In this document: piece after piece, positions 2,878 to 29,469 of the stretch | Layout: the number at the start of each line of letters is the position of its first letter | Numbering within the stretch: position 1 is the stretch's first letter | Origin: a virus | Virus record (IMG/VR): IMGVR_UViG_3300007734_000600 | Coordinates: 1 to 33,778 of that record | Direction: 5' to 3' (one strand) | Length of the DNA: 33,778 nucleotides | The notes under the pieces: generated by a model | Seen by the model: the letters and a program-made list of their open reading frames with translations, nothing else | Told to the model about the DNA's origin: nothing | Databases searched by the model: none | Made by a program: the position numbers and the translations under genes

Positions 2878-4161
2878 ATGTCTGAAGTTCAACAAGCAAT
2901 AGCCAAGGCTGAATTCCCACTCAAGCTAGAGTGCCTGTTCAAGCCATCACGCTACAAAGTTCTTTATGGTGGACGAGGCGGTGCTAAGTCTTGGGGCGTT
3001 GCTAGAGCATTGCTGATCAAGGCAGCGCAGAGCCAGTTACGCATACTGTGCGCCCGTGAGTTCCAAACATCTATCAAGGATTCAGTCCACAAGCTGTTGT
3101 GTGACCAAATTGAGGCTTTGGGGCTTGGATCGTTCTACGAGATTACCCAAACCAACATTAAGGGCAAAAATGGCTCTGAGTTCAGTTTTGTTGGCCTTAA
3201 GAACAACGTGGCTAATGTCAAGTCTTATGAGGGCGTGGACATTTGTTGGGTTGAGGAAGCGCAGACCACAAGCCGAATGTCATGGAACGTGTTGATTCCT
3301 ACCATTCGTAAGGAAAAGTCAGAGATATGGATTACGTTCAACCCTGAGTTGGAAACAGACGAAACATATCAACGGTTTGTGCTAAACCCGCCTGATGACT
3401 GCATCGTCACCAAGGTCAACTGGTCAGACAATCCTTGGTTTCCTGAAACACTCAAACTTGAGAAAGATGCCCTTAAGTTTCGTGACCCACAGGCTTACAA
3501 CGTGGTTTGGGAAGGTTTGTGCCGACAGACTGTGGATGGCGCTATCTTTGCCAAAGAAATGCAAATGGCTGAGTTGGATGGGCGCATCACAAAGGTCAAC
3601 TATGACCCCACAAAGCCCGTACACGCCATTTTTGACCTTGGGTGGTCTGATGCCACAGCAATTTGGTTTTTACAGTTTATAGGCATGGAAACCCGCCTGA
3701 TTCGCTACATTGAGGGCAATCAGCAGACCATGAGCGATTACCTAGCCAAGATGCAGACGTTTGGTTACATCTATGACACGCTGTGGCTACCCCATGACGC
3801 TGAGAACAAGACACTAGCAGGCAATGGCAGAAGCATTGAGGAAATTGTTAGAGCAGCGGGTTACAAAACCAAAATCATTCCCAAAACGCCTATTCTTGAC
3901 TCCATCAATGCGGCTAGAACAATCTTTGTTAACTGCTGGTTTGACCGAGACAACTGTCACGAAGGCTTGCAATGCCTCAGACATTACCGTTACGATGTTG
4001 ACCCAGATACAAAGCAATTTAGCAAAACGCCACTCCATGACCAATATTCACATGGTGCTGATGCGTTTAGATACATTGGACTGATGGTCAACGAGCCAAG
4101 ACAGGCTAGAAGGCCAAGGCTTAACACAAATTATGGTAGCCAACACTCATGGATGAGTTAA
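2878..4161 (+). CDS. Terminase large subunit (packaging ATPase/nuclease)
   Basis: A 427-residue terminase of the PBSX/Terminase_3 type. Walker A is GGRGGAKS (31-38). Walker B is VDICWVEEA (120-128), with the catalytic Glu at 126/127. The coupling motif is TFNPE (153-157). The RNase H-like nuclease shows Asp253 in FDLGWSD, Asp307 in LPHDAEN and Asp395 in HGADAF, three acidic metal ligands. It packages DNA into proheads through the portal and cuts the concatemer. Length is normal. An in-frame stop lies 15 bases upstream, so the start is at or after 2878. No strong ribosome binding site is seen and the upstream segment is structured. Confidence 0.95.
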   Translation: MSEVQQAIAKAEFPLKLECLFKPSRYKVLYGGRGGAKSWGVARALLIKAAQSQLRILCAREFQTSIKDSVHKLLCDQIEALGLGSFYEITQTNIKGKNGSEFSFVGLKNNVANVKSYEGVDICWVEEAQTTSRMSWNVLIPTIRKEKSEIWITFNPELETDETYQRFVLNPPDDCIVTKVNWSDNPWFPETLKLEKDALKFRDPQAYNVVWEGLCRQTVDGAIFAKEMQMAELDGRITKVNYDPTKPVHAIFDLGWSDATAIWFLQFIGMETRLIRYIEGNQQTMSDYLAKMQTFGYIYDTLWLPHDAENKTLAGNGRSIEEIVRAAGYKTKIIPKTPILDSINAARTIFVNCWFDRDNCHEGLQCLRHYRYDVDPDTKQFSKTPLHDQYSHGADAFRYIGLMVNEPRQARRPRLNTNYGSQHSWMS

Positions 4162-25163: not shown

Positions 25164-25603
25164 ACTTAGAACTGGCTGCTGCACTTTGTCGCCAGTTTGA
25201 AGGGTTTAGGTCTAAACCTTACCTATGCCCTGCGGGTATTCCAACAATCGGCTACGGCTCAACTTATTACTCTGATGGGCGCAAAGTTACTTTGGAAGAT
25301 GCGCCAATGGACGAGCCAACTGCCAGGGCGCTTTTGATGGCAGAACTTCAGCATACTTACTTGCCAGGCGTTCTGCGAAACTGCCCAATCCTTGCTTCTG
25401 ATGAACGTAAGTGCAACGCTATTGTTGATTTTTGCTACAACCTGGGCGTTGGTCGGCTTCAAACATCAACCCTTAAACGCAAGATCAATGCGCAAGATTG
25501 GGATGGCGCAAAAGAGCAATTGATGCTGTGGACTAAGGGTGGCGGCAAAGTCTTGCCTGGTCTTTTAAAACGCAGACAAGCCGAATGCGTCCTTATTTCT
25601 TAG
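25160..25603 (+). CDS. Endolysin, GH24 lysozyme with E-C-T triad
   Basis: A 147-residue T4-lysozyme-type muramidase. FEGF carries Glu14. YLCPAGIPTIGYG carries Cys23 and Thr29 with the exact T4 spacing (Glu, +9, +15). Cys replaces the usual Asp of the second position; T4 lysozyme tolerates Cys there. CYNLGVGRLQTSTLKRKI and the Trp-rich C-terminus are typical. There is no signal peptide or SAR segment, so it depends on the holin. The gene ends 11 bases inside the convergent zinc-ribbon gene. No Rz/Rz1 spanin is visible downstream. Confidence 0.9.
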   Translation: MNLELAAALCRQFEGFRSKPYLCPAGIPTIGYGSTYYSDGRKVTLEDAPMDEPTARALLMAELQHTYLPGVLRNCPILASDERKCNAIVDFCYNLGVGRLQTSTLKRKINAQDWDGAKEQLMLWTKGGGKVLPGLLKRRQAECVLIS

Positions 25604-25766
25604 CCTGGTTCTGACGCAAATGTTTGCCTGTCAGACGCATGATCCAGCAGGACTGGCAAATCCATTTGTGACCCATGTCAATGCCGCCCTCTGGTGGTTT
25701 GCTCTCATCACATTTGTTGCAAGTTCTGAATGGGTGAAGTTGGCGTGGCTCTGATATTGGTGTCAT
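25593..25766 (-). CDS. Zinc-ribbon microprotein (57 aa)
   Basis: A minus-strand gene starting at 25766 (ATGA overlap with the stop of the gene upstream in its operon) and ending at 25593. The protein has Cys16, Cys19, Cys37 and Cys40 (C-x2-C-x17-C-x2-C), a zinc ribbon, and a basic C-terminus (MRLTGKHLRQNQAKK). It is the last gene of the leftward operon, and its 3' end overlaps the endolysin gene by 11 bases tail to tail. DNA-binding or regulator partner roles are possible. It is too short for a routine 60-residue cutoff but well supported by coupling and motif. Confidence 0.72.
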   Translation of the reverse strand: MTPISEPRQLHPFRTCNKCDESKPPEGGIDMGHKWICQSCWIMRLTGKHLRQNQAKK

Positions 25767-26221
25767 TTAATTTCTACTACTTCTTTTGATTTGCTTTTGA
25801 TTCGGTTACGGGTCTTGACGATCATTTGCTCATAGACGCTACGGGGAACGCTAGAGCGCTGAAGGTCGTGATACTCATATACTTCTCTGATCGCTTTTAA
25901 TCCTAACCCTGACAGACCCATGCGCTTGGTCTTTTCAAAGCGTTTAGCGGCTTCTGTAAGGGCTTCTTGGGCCTGTTGGCAATGTGGGAGGGCTTCAGGG
26001 CCAATGCCTTGAGATGCCATGACTTCACAAATGTTCATCATGTCGGCAAGTTCTTGCCACTCAACGATTGTCCCCATGCCCTTTGACATGGCCTCAATTG
26101 CCGCCAGTTCCCTCAATCTGAGTTTGTCCAATAGGTGCGGTTGAGTTATCCCCGCCCCCAAGATCGCATGACGCAGCGGGTCGATCAACTTCCAATGTTT
26201 CCGCTTTGTTTGTTTTCTCAT
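25763..26221 (-). CDS. Conserved phage protein (hypothetical, regulator-like)
   Basis: A 152-residue protein beginning MRKQTKRKHWKLIDPLRHAI; an in-frame start at 26233 would add four residues. It is helical and basic at both ends, with LRELAAIEAMSKGMGTIVEW in the middle and a conserved-looking RMGLSGLGLKAIREVYEYHD near 110-130. I recall relatives in other beta-proteobacterial phages, always without assigned function. It overlaps the upstream gene (26094-26315) out of frame by 128 bases. Its stop overlaps the next gene's ATG. Confidence 0.75.
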   Translation of the reverse strand: MRKQTKRKHWKLIDPLRHAILGAGITQPHLLDKLRLRELAAIEAMSKGMGTIVEWQELADMMNICEVMASQGIGPEALPHCQQAQEALTEAAKRFEKTKRMGLSGLGLKAIREVYEYHDLQRSSVPRSVYEQMIVKTRNRIKSKSKEVVEIK

Positions 26222-26315
26222 TGTCCCTGCCAAAAATTAAATCCCAACGCTTTGCATATTCTTCATTTGCCACTTGAAATGGCCTTGGCTTGTCGCCTTT
26301 TCCTCCATCACTCAT
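26094..26315 (-). CDS. Small conserved phage protein (PRPF...WDxIFG type)
   Basis: A 73-residue protein. The segment GDKPRPFQVANEEYAKRWDL (7-26), then IFGRDNEK, matches a short phage protein family I recognise by this signature but whose function is unknown. The rest (35-73) is low-complexity and Gly/Thr-rich. Its ATG overlaps the stop of the Cys-rich microgene upstream (ATGA). The last 128 bases overlap the next gene in a different frame, so the tail may be a by-product of that overlap. Confidence 0.62.
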   Translation of the reverse strand: MSDGGKGDKPRPFQVANEEYAKRWDLIFGRDNEKTNKAETLEVDRPAASCDLGGGDNSTAPIGQTQIEGTGGN

Positions 26316-26464
26316 GCTTCCCCCTTAATGCCGTGTGCGGCTTCAATGGCTTGGTAGTTTGTCGGCGGTTTTCCGTCATACCGATATTTGCACCCCATGC
26401 AACGAATGATTCGCTCAACAGTGTTTTTGTGTGATGCGTTACAGGTTTTGCAGGGGTTTTTCAT
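26312..26464 (-). CDS. Zinc-ribbon microprotein with AIEAAHGIK tail (50 aa)
   Basis: A minus-strand gene with ATG at 26464, overlapping the stop of the upstream mosaic gene, and TGA overlapping the next ATG at 26315. Cys5, Cys8, Cys22 and Cys25 form C-x2-C-x13-C-x2-C. The C-terminal AIEAAHGIK is identical to the end module of the mosaic gene at 26461-26889, encoded by a 29-bp exact DNA repeat (26323-26351 and 26472-26500). So a zinc-ribbon head has been joined to a mobile tail block. Function unknown. Confidence 0.7.
   Translation of the reverse strand: MKNPCKTCNASHKNTVERIIRCMGCKYRYDGKPPTNYQAIEAAHGIKGEA
26323..26351. repeat. Mosaic block A, copy 1
   Basis: 29 bp identical to 26472-26500. 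Part of it (23 bp beginning TGCGGCTTCAATGGCTCGGG in copy 2) is also present at 26907-26929. It encodes AIEAAHGIK at the C-terminus of three adjacent genes. Confidence 0.85.
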
Positions 26465-26889
26465 TTGTTCTCCTTAATGCCGTGTGCGGCTTCAATGGCT
26501 CGGGCAATGACGTATGGGTCATATGACCAAGTCTCGGCGCAAACGGCTTTAATCTCCTCATCCGTCAGCGGCTTGCGCTGTGGTGGAAGCGTTGCAACAG
26601 GCGTGACCCACATACTTGCATCAAACCCAGAACTTCTGTCTTGGTCGTGAACCCAAGGCAATAAGGCGTTGTTGATGCCCTGTTTCATTGGGTCTGGCAC
26701 AGTTGGCTTGTAAATCTTAAATTTCATCGCCACAGGCTCCTGCTCTGGCTGTGCCAAGGCTTCTTTGATGGCAGGAATGGCTTGTTCACACGCAGGCCAC
26801 CACACTCGGATGTACTCCTCATGCTCTGGAGCGATGTAAATCTTCTGTAACGCCTCCAGCGCCAGCTTCAATGCTTCTCGTTCAGTCAT
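26461..26889 (-). CDS. Mosaic modular protein 2 (paralogue of 26886-27551)
   Basis: A 142-residue protein with start at 26889 (MTEREALKLALEALQ), coupled by ATGA to its paralogue; the upstream in-frame start at 26904 would lie in the other gene. Four segments match the paralogue exactly or nearly: TEREALKLA, KEALAQPEQEPVA, PPQRKPLTDEEI and ARAIEAA. The sequence between them is unrelated. It has one cysteine near 30 and an acidic character. Proteins with EPVA...PPQRKPLTDEEI are common in aquatic phages, but I know of no function. The blocks are conserved at the DNA level. Confidence 0.75.
   Translation of the reverse strand: MTEREALKLALEALQKIYIAPEHEEYIRVWWPACEQAIPAIKEALAQPEQEPVAMKFKIYKPTVPDPMKQGINNALLPWVHDQDRSSGFDASMWVTPVATLPPQRKPLTDEEIKAVCAETWSYDPYVIARAIEAAHGIKENK
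26472..26500. repeat. Mosaic block A, copy 2
   Basis: Identical over 29 bp to 26323-26351. Its right half, extended to 26507, is identical over 23 bp to 26907-26929. Confidence 0.85.
26551..26586. repeat. Mosaic block B, copy 1
   Basis: 36 bp identical to 26982-27017. It encodes PPQRKPLTDEEI in both mosaic proteins. Confidence 0.9.
26727..26762. repeat. Mosaic block C, copy 1
   Basis: 36 bp identical to 27380-27415. It encodes KALAQPEQEPVA or EALAQPEQEPVA. A degenerate third copy (EPKQEQEPVV) lies near 27203-27240 within the larger gene. Confidence 0.9.
26859..26883. repeat. Mosaic block D, copy 1
   Basis: 25 bp identical to 27521-27545, then one mismatch and a further GTCATTT. It encodes MTEREALKLA at the N-terminus and includes the start codon. 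Confidence 0.85.
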
Positions 26890-27551
26890 TTCTGTTTCTC
26901 CCATACTGCGGCTTCAATGGCTCGGGCAAAATGAATGTCCGTGTGCTGATGAGAAGACGCACACTCAGCCACAATCAAAATAATCTCCTCATCCGTCAGC
27001 GGCTTGCGCTGTGGTGGGGCTTTGTTTGGGAGATGCACCATTTCATCCCCACACCAAACTGCGCCACAAACGCATTGCAGTTCATGGTTCGCCAATGGTT
27101 CGCTATACAAAGGCACTTCGGATGTTTTGCTGTGGTCAACAAAATCCCTCATGTGTTTTTGAAACCGCACCTCGTGTGTGCTTTTATCTTGGTACATCCA
27201 GACCACAGGCTCTTGCTCTTGCTTTGGCTCTGGCAAAGCGTCCCAAGCCGCCATGTAGACAGATGCCGCATGACCAGCATACAAACGCTCGTCATAACCT
27301 TCTGTTGAACATTCATCCATCGCTTTGAGCATTGCTTCGTTTGCTTTTCTTGGCATGAGTTTCCAATCTTTTTGGATTGTCGCCACAGGCTCCTGCTCTG
27401 GCTGTGCCAAGGCTTTGTCAATGGCTTTAATGCCGTTTTCTGCGTAGCGTCTGCGGTCATCGTTGCGTAGATGTCCAGCCTTGCCAAGCAGGGCATCCAG
27501 TTGAACGCCAAGCGCTGTCCGCGCCAGCTTCAATGCTTCTCGTTCGGTCAT
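26886..27551 (-). CDS. Mosaic modular protein 1
   Basis: A 221-residue protein with start ATG at 27551, overlapping the stop of the winged-helix gene (ATGA); the GTG at 27563 is less likely. Modules in order: TEREALKLA, KALAQPEQEPVA, a second EPKQEQEPVV-like piece, a Cys-containing region CVCGAVWC (a possible metal site), PPQRKPLTDEEI and ARAIEAA. Between modules the sequence does not resemble the paralogue at 26461-26889, and the block C to block B interval is 362 bp instead of 140 bp. It is an early-operon gene of unknown function, possibly a variable adaptor. Confidence 0.75.
   Translation of the reverse strand: MTEREALKLARTALGVQLDALLGKAGHLRNDDRRRYAENGIKAIDKALAQPEQEPVATIQKDWKLMPRKANEAMLKAMDECSTEGYDERLYAGHAASVYMAAWDALPEPKQEQEPVVWMYQDKSTHEVRFQKHMRDFVDHSKTSEVPLYSEPLANHELQCVCGAVWCGDEMVHLPNKAPPQRKPLTDEEIILIVAECASSHQHTDIHFARAIEAAVWEKQK
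26907..26929. repeat. Mosaic block A, copy 3 (partial)
   Basis: 23 bp identical to 26485-26507. It encodes ARAIEAA near the C-terminus of mosaic protein 1. Confidence 0.8.
26982..27017. repeat. Mosaic block B, copy 2
   Basis: 36 bp identical to 26551-26586. Confidence 0.9.
27380..27415. repeat. Mosaic block C, copy 2
   Basis: 36 bp identical to 26727-26762. Confidence 0.9.
27521..27545. repeat. Mosaic block D, copy 2
   Basis: 25 bp identical to 26859-26883, at the start of mosaic protein 1. Confidence 0.85.
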
Positions 27552-27865
27552 TTTGCTTTCCACTCTCGTTCGTTGCGTCCTGAGTTTGATTTGACCGTGT
27601 TGCCTGTAAGTTCAATCAAACCGATGATTTTCATTTCGTTCAAGCGCCTGGCTACTTGGTTGCTGTCCAACTGCGTAAAGTAGGCAATCCCATCCTTACC
27701 AAGTGGGCCATGCTTGTGCAAGCATTCCAAGATCAAATCGTGGTGCTGTGGCGCTGCTTCTTTAATTGACTCTGCTGCCTCAAAAGAGGTCAAAGGATCG
27801 GAGGCACGAACTCTTGGGAATTCGGGCATGGCAAAAATGCGTTTAAATGTTTCTTTATAGTCCAT
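27548..27865 (-). CDS. Winged-helix/HTH protein
   Basis: A 105-residue protein. RASDPLTSFEAAESIKEAAP (20-39) followed by HGPLGKDGIAYFTQLDSNQV (51-70) and ARRLNEMKIIGLIELTG form a winged-helix fold like that of small phage MarR/replication-associated regulators. The end is basic (SNSGRNEREWKAK). A good GGAG site lies upstream. It probably binds DNA to regulate the leftward operon or to assist replication; no specific family is certain. It is separated from the SSB-like gene by 63 bases and coupled to mosaic protein 1. Confidence 0.75.
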   Translation of the reverse strand: MDYKETFKRIFAMPEFPRVRASDPLTSFEAAESIKEAAPQHHDLILECLHKHGPLGKDGIAYFTQLDSNQVARRLNEMKIIGLIELTGNTVKSNSGRNEREWKAK

Positions 27866-27928: not shown

Positions 27929-28171
27929 TTAAAAGGGCAAATCTTCGGGATCGTCCTTGGGCAGACCTTTGTATTCGTCTTTTGGTTTTGGTGTATTGAG
28001 ATACCCCCAACCTGACCATCCACCTTCGACCAATGGAATCATGTCCAATTTCAACATTGGCCCATTTTTGGTTTCAATAACTGAACCAATATTTTGATAG
28101 CGTGATTTCTCTTGACCATCTTTGTTGGTGTATTTACCCGACACAATGGTGATTTCGTAAAGTTTAGACAT
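27929..28171 (-). CDS. Small SSB-like protein with acidic C-terminal tip
   Basis: An 80-residue protein. LYEITIVSGKYTNKDGQEKS, then RYQNIGSVIETKNGPMLKLD and a Trp-rich WSGWGYLN, suggest a compact beta-barrel. The C-terminus DDPEDLPF closely resembles the SSB tip (DDDIPF), which recruits partners in DNA replication and repair. It follows annealase and exonuclease genes, so it probably coats or protects single strands during recombination. It is smaller than bacterial SSB, so it may be an OB-fold variant. Its ATG overlaps the exonuclease stop by 8 bases. Confidence 0.65.
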   Translation of the reverse strand: MSKLYEITIVSGKYTNKDGQEKSRYQNIGSVIETKNGPMLKLDMIPLVEGGWSGWGYLNTPKPKDEYKGLPKDDPEDLPF

Positions 28172-28790
28172 TTTTGACTTTCATAAGTTTATTAATTTTT
28201 TCGTCCAGTTCAGCAAGGAATTGGACAATCTCAGCTTCTATTTGCTTGATATACACATCGTCCCGTGGGACACGTTTCACAAACAATTGAAGTTCTTCTG
28301 GCAGACGATTGTCAAACGACACAAAGTCACACCACTCACGCCCTGTGCAAGCCATTTGAAATTGCATTTGGGTGAAGTATTTGGTTGGCACAGACTCTGA
28401 CAACAGCGTGTCAATGTGAGTTGCCGTGTTGGGGCATTTAATCTCTATCAGCCCATCATCGTTTACAAGGCCATCAGGGGACGCACCAGCCATTGCAATC
28501 GTTGGGTGAGGCACAAACCCAACTTCATCAACCAAGACGTTCTTAGCGACTTCGTATGACAGCCTAGCATATGGCTCTGTCTCTGTGCCGTGTTGCATGG
28601 CAGCGTTGGTAAAACTTTCACCCTTTTGATTGGTGAGGCGTTCACAAATCAATTGAGCCATGTAGTTGTCACGACTGGTTGAATAGCCTGACTTGGTTTT
28701 GGCAATAATGTCAGCCACACGGGATGCGGTGACTTTACCAATACGAATGGCAAACCATTCATCTGAGCCTTGATCCATCATTTCAATCAT
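28164..28790 (-). CDS. YqaJ-type (lambda exonuclease-like) recombinase nuclease
   Basis: A 208-residue protein of the YqaJ family. GSDEWFAIRIGKVTASRVAD (8-27) is the family signature. The PD-(D/E)xK catalytic core is visible as Asp106 (SPDGL) and Glu116/Lys118 (EIKC). FTQMQFQMACTGREWCDFVS is also typical. It resects 5' ends to expose the single strands used by the annealase. It sits two genes after the ERF annealase, separated by a 30-codon gene. Start at 28790 is preferred because it overlaps that gene's stop (ATGA). Confidence 0.88.
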   Translation of the reverse strand: MIEMMDQGSDEWFAIRIGKVTASRVADIIAKTKSGYSTSRDNYMAQLICERLTNQKGESFTNAAMQHGTETEPYARLSYEVAKNVLVDEVGFVPHPTIAMAGASPDGLVNDDGLIEIKCPNTATHIDTLLSESVPTKYFTQMQFQMACTGREWCDFVSFDNRLPEELQLFVKRVPRDDVYIKQIEAEIVQFLAELDEKINKLMKVKNV

Positions 28791-28879
28791 ATAGGGCTTT
28801 CTTCATAGTTATCAGGATTGAACTTGGGGCGCTTTGTCCCCTTGTCCTTTGGGTTTGGGAATGGTGGAAAAGGCCACAT
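28787..28879 (-). CDS. Proline-rich microprotein (30 aa) between annealase and exonuclease
   Basis: A minus-strand gene whose ATG (28879) overlaps the ERF stop (TAATG) and whose TGA overlaps the exonuclease start (ATGA). The product starts MWPFPPFPNPKDKG and ends NYEESPI, with a Trp/Pro/Phe-rich head and an acidic tail. The double overlap and a composition unlike random sequence support translation. I recall similar short Pro-rich peptides in phage genomes. Its place within the recombination cassette suggests a partner peptide, but the function is unknown. Confidence 0.62.
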   Translation of the reverse strand: MWPFPPFPNPKDKGTKRPKFNPDNYEESPI

Positions 28880-29469
28880 TACAGTTTTGCCTTTGCTTCA
28901 TCTTTGGCTTGGATAACTTTCATCTGCCAGGCTTTGTCACCATCACAAGCAGCGTAGGCTACTTTGTAAGCAAGTTTTAATTCATCTTGATTAGTAGATT
29001 GCTTAATAGCCAAAAACAAATCTTTCATTGAATTTGAATCAATATGTGAAATTGCATCTTCAGAATCATTGTCGCCCTCTGTGGGAATGGCAAACGCTTG
29101 AAATGCGGCATATTTGTAAGCGGCTGACATTGCTTTGTTGGTAGCTTTGTCACCGCTATCCATTGCTTCACCAAATGTTTTTACTGTGTGTTTTGTGCCA
29201 TCTTCAGAACTGACAAAATCAAATTCAGCTTCAACAGTTACATAAAACAATGAGCCGCCACTTTTAGACAATCGTTCATCACAATGGCGCGACAACATAC
29301 GAGGCAAAATACATAACTTATGAGTGGCCAACAAAGGTGCAATGGCGTTGTAAACATCATCAATTCCTCGAAAGTTATAACCACTACCTTGTTGGTTTCT
29401 GCGAGTTTTTTCAATACCGGTCTTGGCTAAATCAGCTTGTATTGCGTTAATTGCTTGATAGACTTTCAT
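28879..29469 (-). CDS. ERF-family single-strand annealing protein
   Basis: A 196-residue protein with the ERF N-terminal core: YQAINAIQADLAKTGIEKTR, then NFRGIDDVYNAIAPLLATHK and TFGEAMDSGDKATNKAMSAA, then YKYAAFQAFAIPTEGDND. ERF proteins form rings that anneal complementary strands, as in P22 Erf. The C-terminal 50 residues are helical and probably bind partners. It heads the recombination cassette and pairs with the YqaJ nuclease. Its start overlaps the stop of the 52-residue gene (ATGA). Confidence 0.9.
   Translation of the reverse strand: MKVYQAINAIQADLAKTGIEKTRRNQQGSGYNFRGIDDVYNAIAPLLATHKLCILPRMLSRHCDERLSKSGGSLFYVTVEAEFDFVSSEDGTKHTVKTFGEAMDSGDKATNKAMSAAYKYAAFQAFAIPTEGDNDSEDAISHIDSNSMKDLFLAIKQSTNQDELKLAYKVAYAACDGDKAWQMKVIQAKDEAKAKL

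Follow-up and report, generated by a model that had tools for sequence, protein, structure and literature searches.

The window, that is, the whole stretch of DNA analysed here, is the 33,778-bp IMG/VR record IMGVR_UViG_3300007734_000600. On its minus strand, genes for an Erf-family single-strand annealing recombinase (28879-29469; Pfam PF04404, 5.9e-23) and a YqaJ-family recombination exonuclease (28164-28790; Pfam PF09588, 1.7e-28) are followed by p105 (27548-27865), mosaic gene 2 (26886-27551, 221 aa), mosaic gene 1 (26461-26889, 142 aa), a 50-aa gene with a zinc-ribbon-like CxxC...CxxC head (26312-26464) and the 73-aa gene p73 (26094-26315). All genes of the array from p105 onward are connected by ATGA overlaps: the array begins at the ATGA stop of p105, and the ATG of p73 overlaps the last stop. 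At 25593-25766, the window also encodes a small CxxC...CxxC protein (KPPEGGIDMGHKWICQSCW) adjoining a lysozyme-like gene; this protein is very conserved among relatives and lies directly after p105 in many of them.

Comparison of the two mosaic genes showed that they have four exact strings in common, of 25, 36, 37 and 23 bp and in the same order, which encode MTEREALKLA (start block D), ALAQPEQEPVA (joint block B), PPQRKPLTDEEI (joint block C) and ARAIEAA (tail block A), respectively. The longest exact string common to the two paralogues in 200 Markov-1 shuffles was 14 bp. In mosaic genes 1 and 2, block D lies at 26860-26889 and 27522-27551, block B at 26727-26762 and 27380-27415, block C at 26550-26586 and 26981-27017, and the identical 23 bp of block A at 26485-26507 and 26907-26929, all on the minus strand. 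The first-pass annotation had described four DNA-identical blocks in a conserved order; the blocks and their order were confirmed and three of the four are 100% identical, but the copies of block D match at 29 of 30 positions, with one synonymous mismatch just outside the exact 25 bp. The full tail block of mosaic gene 1 (26461-26507; ARAIEAAHGIKENK and stop) contains AAGGAG and the ATGA start/stop overlap. The zinc-ribbon gene ends in block A as well (26312-26351; QAIEAAHGIKGEA and stop), with AAGGGGGA and an ATGA overlap to p73, and has 29 exact bp in common with the tail of mosaic gene 1, in agreement with its earlier description as a zinc-ribbon head fused to block A only. Similar zinc-ribbon heads are fused to block C or to the tail in three other loci (L244, L280 and L123).

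Mosaic gene 1 is built as head, B, insert, C, tail module and A, and mosaic gene 2 as head, B, M1, B', M2, M3, C, tail module and an A-like end. B' is an internal second joint (LPEPKQEQEPVVW, about 27195-27236, minus strand) that precedes the same insert in L066, L246 and L302 and is the start point of another insert module. A degenerate extra block C had been reported earlier; it is real, and corresponds to this second EPVA joint, which is a block B in the present naming.

PPQRKPLTDEEI was back-translated with full degeneracy, so that the protein was fixed and the synonymous sites were free, and IMG/VR was searched with the resulting pattern, which matched 103 stretches. Block C occurs as two alleles, K (PPQRKPLTDEE) and T (PPQRTWVGLTDE). 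A scan for the T allele gave at least 120 stretches, and the true number is therefore larger; more than 200 genes of this kind were found in IMG/VR by the back-translated searches. The results showed that 49 of 105 copies of the K allele have one identical 36-mer and that, in the core of block C, a single codon is used in 96-100% of the 105 copies (for example CCA in 103, GAT in 105 and CTG in 103). The contigs bearing the block span 40-63% GC; from their own codon usage, 18-57% would be expected per codon. The mean frequency of the commonest codon was 0.976 in the block C core, compared with 0.56-0.71 where residues are invariant in four orthologous neighbour genes in the relatives of the window. 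Codon bias as the cause of block identity is ruled out by this prediction and these controls. The first-pass annotation had held that its joint reading would be refuted if the blocks diverged at synonymous sites as fast as other genes; the opposite was found. Blocks A, B and D and the PLYTT lead-in are also conserved at wobble positions, though they were no search keys for the K set, and both ends of the T allele are spelled as in the K allele. Among C-terminal modules that have diverged to 50-85% amino acid identity, the module itself shows synonymous change of 0.25-0.68, compared with 0.01-0.14 for the block.

Each insert that follows the head of mosaic gene 2 recurs in other genes and in other contexts. 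M1 (27236-27365, minus strand; WKLMPRKANEAMLKAMDECSTEGYDERLYAGHAASVYMAAWDA) was also found in L021, L066, L275, L302 and L352, at 79-88% nucleotide identity, and precedes either allele of block C in other loci. M2 (27090-27222, minus strand; VVWMYQDKSTHEVRFQKHMRDFVDHS...) is also present in L066, L246 and L302, and the CVCGAVW module M3 (27018-27089, minus strand; ELQCVCGAVWCGDEMVH) in L066, L302, L255, L068, L097 and L022; relative to the window, the order of M2 and M3 is reversed in L302. The tail module ILIVAECASSHQHTDIHF (26928-26981, minus strand) is 95-96% identical in nucleotides in L088, L093 and L246, where the upstream parts are unrelated. The tail of L246 is 95.6% identical to that of the window and the shared DNA starts inside block C, L246 having the T allele and the window the K allele.

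Pairwise DNA comparison of 92 dereplicated K-allele copies showed that homology is confined to block C in most pairs. Among the 4183 pairs, it extended more than 40 bp beyond the block in about 18% on the right and 1.4% on the left. The downstream module was common and the upstream part unrelated in 711 pairs, and the reverse was found in 36, with identities up to 99%; block A contributes part of the downstream sharing in the 711 pairs. For 209 dereplicated genes of both alleles among the matches listed, with blocks annotated by pattern, the ends of high-identity HSPs fell in blocks of both genes in 119 of 222 cases, compared with 50 +/- 6 for randomly placed ends. Dereplicated genes that otherwise differ had 202 HSPs of at least 96% nucleotide identity in common, and near-identical pieces (95-99%) adjoin unrelated pieces. 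In 190 genes among the matches listed, 142 different middle families are joined to 137 tail families: at least two middle partners were found for 27 of 28 multi-gene tail families and at least two tails for 30 of 30 middle families, and 15 middle families were found ahead of both block C alleles. These partner counts are inflated because dereplication discards repeated combinations; when it is omitted, at least two upstream classes occur with 23 of 37 multi-gene tail classes at 90% nucleotide identity or more. A complete four-gamete quartet was found only once (L151 and L317 gene 1, L288, L263 and L317 gene 2). Modules are exchanged, with breakpoints at the blocks. Collecting the genes with the block and comparing their inserts, as the first-pass annotation had advised, thus revealed insert exchange together with conserved joint DNA, and pairwise homology, HSP ends, family pairings and shared segments all support its view that the inserts between the blocks are unrelated and not inherited vertically with their neighbours.

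The joint is single-copy in 42 of the 43 other pattern-positive whole records, and two copies were found in the window only, although the exact pattern misses some variants. Exchange therefore takes place mainly between phage genomes, and shuffling between the two paralogues of the window as the main source was rejected. On L317, a 4.3-kb contig, three mosaic genes lie in tandem, two of them with the same tail; two make up half of the four-gamete quartet. In L302 (4689-5828, 380 aa) and L357 (about four units), long members contain a tandem series of B-insert-C' units within one gene, suggesting gain of units by recombination between joints.

The site between p105 and p73 is empty in some relatives of the window and occupied in others. 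In the close relatives L109, L110, L112, L115, L116 and L118, p105 is joined directly to p73; in L111, L113, L114 and L117, one mosaic gene with other modules lies between them. Similarly, L123 carries mosaic genes where eight relatives (L119-L122, L124-L126 and L148) have none, with flanks about 88-98% identical. In both cases related backbones differ in gene content at a set position, as expected of the flexible genes of environmental phages. Replacement of alleles is seen between L040 and L063, whose flanks are 94% and 89% identical and whose intragenic identity is concentrated in block islands. The first codons of p73 (26289-26315 in the window) read MSDGGKGDKPRPF at occupied sites (the window, L111, L113, L114 and L117) and MSKG..RPF at all six empty sites, as though a few codons of the downstream neighbour moved together with the cassette. 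After p105 in L230 (about 3200-3700) there are two adjacent short genes, MTQTEIIEMARQ...RARGEA and MNREHIIVMADASG...QSRGEA, which have start and end motifs in common but not their middles; they may be another set that is shuffled in the same way. The MTQ-EII-MA head is also fused to block C in L348, L351 and L279.

At the gene end, an ATGA overlap with the following start codon was found in 150 of 205 genes, 138 of which also have a Shine-Dalgarno-like sequence in the tail (e.g. AAACTCAAGGAGAAGAACACATGA). Block A thus has its own reason for DNA conservation, because it encodes the ribosome-binding site of the next gene and the ATGA overlap; this second reason is absent from block C. AlphaFold2 models of the mosaic proteins were weak overall (mean pLDDT 72 and 70, pTM 0.37 and 0.35), but the N-terminal helical hairpin is predicted with confidence and the C-terminal helix pair with less. 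In these models, joints B, B' and C are predicted to lie mostly in loops between pieces.

The first-pass annotation had taken the DNA-level identity to suggest that the blocks are recombination joints used to swap inserts, and the synonymous conservation and the non-vertical inserts support this proposal. We put a probability of about 0.72 on the reading that these are modular accessory proteins that homologous recombination diversifies at conserved joints encoding linkers. The grammar would be block D and a helical head, joint B, an insert (repeatable as B-insert-C'), joint C, a tail module and block A, with the folded pieces connected by proline-rich linkers that joints B and C encode. During co-infection of a cell by two phages, homologous recombination or strand annealing could run across the short near-identical joints; a crossover there would swap one whole side, or the insert between two joints, and would leave frame and domains intact. 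Repeated passage through the same joints might then hold the joint DNA constant in unrelated phages and leave the inserts diverse. Block A carries the Shine-Dalgarno sequence and the ATGA overlap, so that a whole gene can enter or leave as a translationally coupled cassette, as between p105 and p73. That the in-frame joints are uniform in DNA as enablers of exchange, with unrelated phages drawing on a common pool of inserts, is a more tentative proposal, to which we give somewhat less than even odds.

The enzyme responsible is inferred. Candidates would be the phage Erf and YqaJ proteins where present and other phage or host enzymes elsewhere. A joint of 24-37 bp is near the lower limit for RecA-type recombination. 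In the window and 46 related records (26-71 kb), Erf was found in 11 of 47, RecT in one and YqaJ in nine (eight over the cut-off); many of the records may be fragments, and other recombinase families lay outside the profile set. This minority occurrence counts against homologous recombination, as does the single strict four-gamete quartet. On the other side, Erf and YqaJ lie next to the array in the window, the Erf protein of phage D3 acts on diverged DNA with a recombination efficiency close to that of lambda Red (PMC3945230), and homology-driven exchange has been argued for in phages (PMC2327257; PMC3945230).

Since breakpoints cannot be placed inside an identical block, the pieces could also have been joined by another route and then selected; the evidence strongly suggests, without proving it, that the pieces are swapped by homologous recombination at the blocks. 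The strongest rival is illegitimate recombination, in which joins are random and only those at protein linkers survive selection. Although it is an accepted general model, with boundary sequences missing at most phage mosaic borders (PMC3029335), and although the blocks sit in predicted linkers, it leaves unexplained why block C is 96-100% uniform at its wobble positions in contigs that span 40-63% GC and why the K and T alleles are spelled alike at both ends, and we regard it as improbable.

Recombination as the cause of joint conservation is itself an inference, and an unknown DNA- or RNA-level function could be the cause instead. Blocks that are functional elements unrelated to general recombination (protein-binding sites, regulatory RNA or a site-specific recombination site) would fit the role of block A as the ribosome-binding site of the next gene, and the K allele holds a CAGCG-CAAGC-CGCTG inverted repeat. 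However, the wobble sites of block C are conserved to the same degree outside and inside this repeat, part of which is replaced in the T allele. The blocks are direct, in-frame and ordered; serine recombinase (PF00239) was found in none of the 47 records and tyrosine integrase (PF00589) in two, the window not among them. We consider such an element quite unlikely. That identical short blocks misled assemblers into false combinations of modules can be set aside as most improbable: the evidence is nearly all metagenomic and the joints are exact repeats, but the same mosaic gene and flanks recur at 99.8-100% in separate datasets (L022/L059; L031/L047/L056/L061; L051/L084; L023/L091), the circular GenBank genome MW202701 holds a diverged version of the same architecture, and the joints are shorter than typical read lengths.

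As to the phages that carry these joints, a pattern scan covering genomes from 84,980 species of bacteria and archaea gave no match to the K allele and one true match to the combined pattern, on a Burkholderiales MAG contig; three further combined-pattern matches (L234-L236) look like chance on translation. The pattern was present in two of 399 genomes of the order of this MAG, both times on small contigs. A prophage origin was rejected on the near-absence from these genomes and the presence of integrase in only two of 47 records. The scarcity of host-genome matches and of integrases suggests that the phages are mostly virulent; their hosts are perhaps Burkholderiales. Both statements are inferences. 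In tblastn searches against named phages and plasmids, nothing or only weak matches were obtained, the relevant ones being to environmental phages, and the named environmental matches are from Manatee Spring and Dishui Lake.

The mosaic proteins of the window had no Pfam or PHROG match, and a fold search with the 142-aa model (pTM 0.37) gave nothing significant. Scattered weak Pfam and PHROG matches of other family members were not significant enough to explain the proteins; one of 55 members matched the Lar-like restriction alleviation family phrog_6422 weakly (E 0.006). Several heads or inserts are zinc-ribbon-like. Function can only be inferred, and early accessory proteins acting on variable host targets are a guess that we think more likely wrong than right. 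Ead/Ea22-like proteins are phage accessory proteins with variable middle parts and resemble the mosaic proteins in this respect; this is a lead only, and no Ead/Ea22 Pfam match was obtained among 55 family members at E<=0.01.

Like diversity-generating retroelements (DGRs) and shufflons, the mosaic genes show local diversification of defined gene parts, but they usually occur as one copy per genome. The DGR explanation was not supported, in line with the first-pass annotation: reverse transcriptase (PF00078) was absent from the window and the 46 related records, and the repeats are conserved with unrelated sequence between them, the opposite of the adenine pattern of template and variable repeats. 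Nor was a shufflon, site-specific inversion or an integrase system supported, given the absence of serine recombinase from all 47 records, the absence of integrase from the window and the direct, same-order, in-frame repeats. Tail-fibre genes undergo intragenic exchange between unrelated phages at short conserved motifs. The mosaic genes differ from them in being small and accessory, with repeated joints and permuted order, and in lying beside Erf and YqaJ in the window.

Boundary-sequence mosaicism refers to short conserved sequences between phage gene modules (PMC3029335; PMC2327257). In both it and the mosaic genes, short conserved DNA lies beside unrelated, replaced segments, with homologous recombination as the proposed explanation; the mosaic genes show the short conserved DNA expected at such borders, and dependence of their exchange on border homology is inferred from sequence alone. 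Its borders, however, lie mainly between genes and in related phages, whereas the mosaic genes have several in-frame joints per small gene, at linkers, and two joint spellings are common to phages with little other shared DNA. Flexible genes, or metagenomic islands, are alternative gene variants at set places in near-identical environmental phage backbones; in the part of that study available to us, many variants are host-recognition or methyltransferase genes, without conserved intragenic joints like those described here (PMC7468147). Protein-fragment mosaicism, in which sub-protein pieces are shuffled across phages and more is expected in proteins of unknown function, was defined from proteins and profiles, and the available text of that work contains neither the word linker nor flanking and no such joints (PMC10684548). 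A literature search, from whose coverage subscription papers were largely missing, found no paper on the motif or gene set.

The gene set occurs in many otherwise different phages, known mostly from metagenomes, and the near-identity of the joint DNA apparently reflects recombination at the joints that keeps swapping pieces between phages. Whether phage mosaics come from homologous recombination between short stretches of common sequence or from joins made at random has long been debated, partly because shared border sequences are absent at most mosaic borders (PMC3029335). In more than 200 distinct genes described here, border sequences are present, repeated, synonymously uniform and intragenic, which makes the question directly testable. 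Exchange at such joints would reveal a simple way for viruses to assemble new proteins out of a common pool of parts, and would account for a group of phage proteins without a family assignment.
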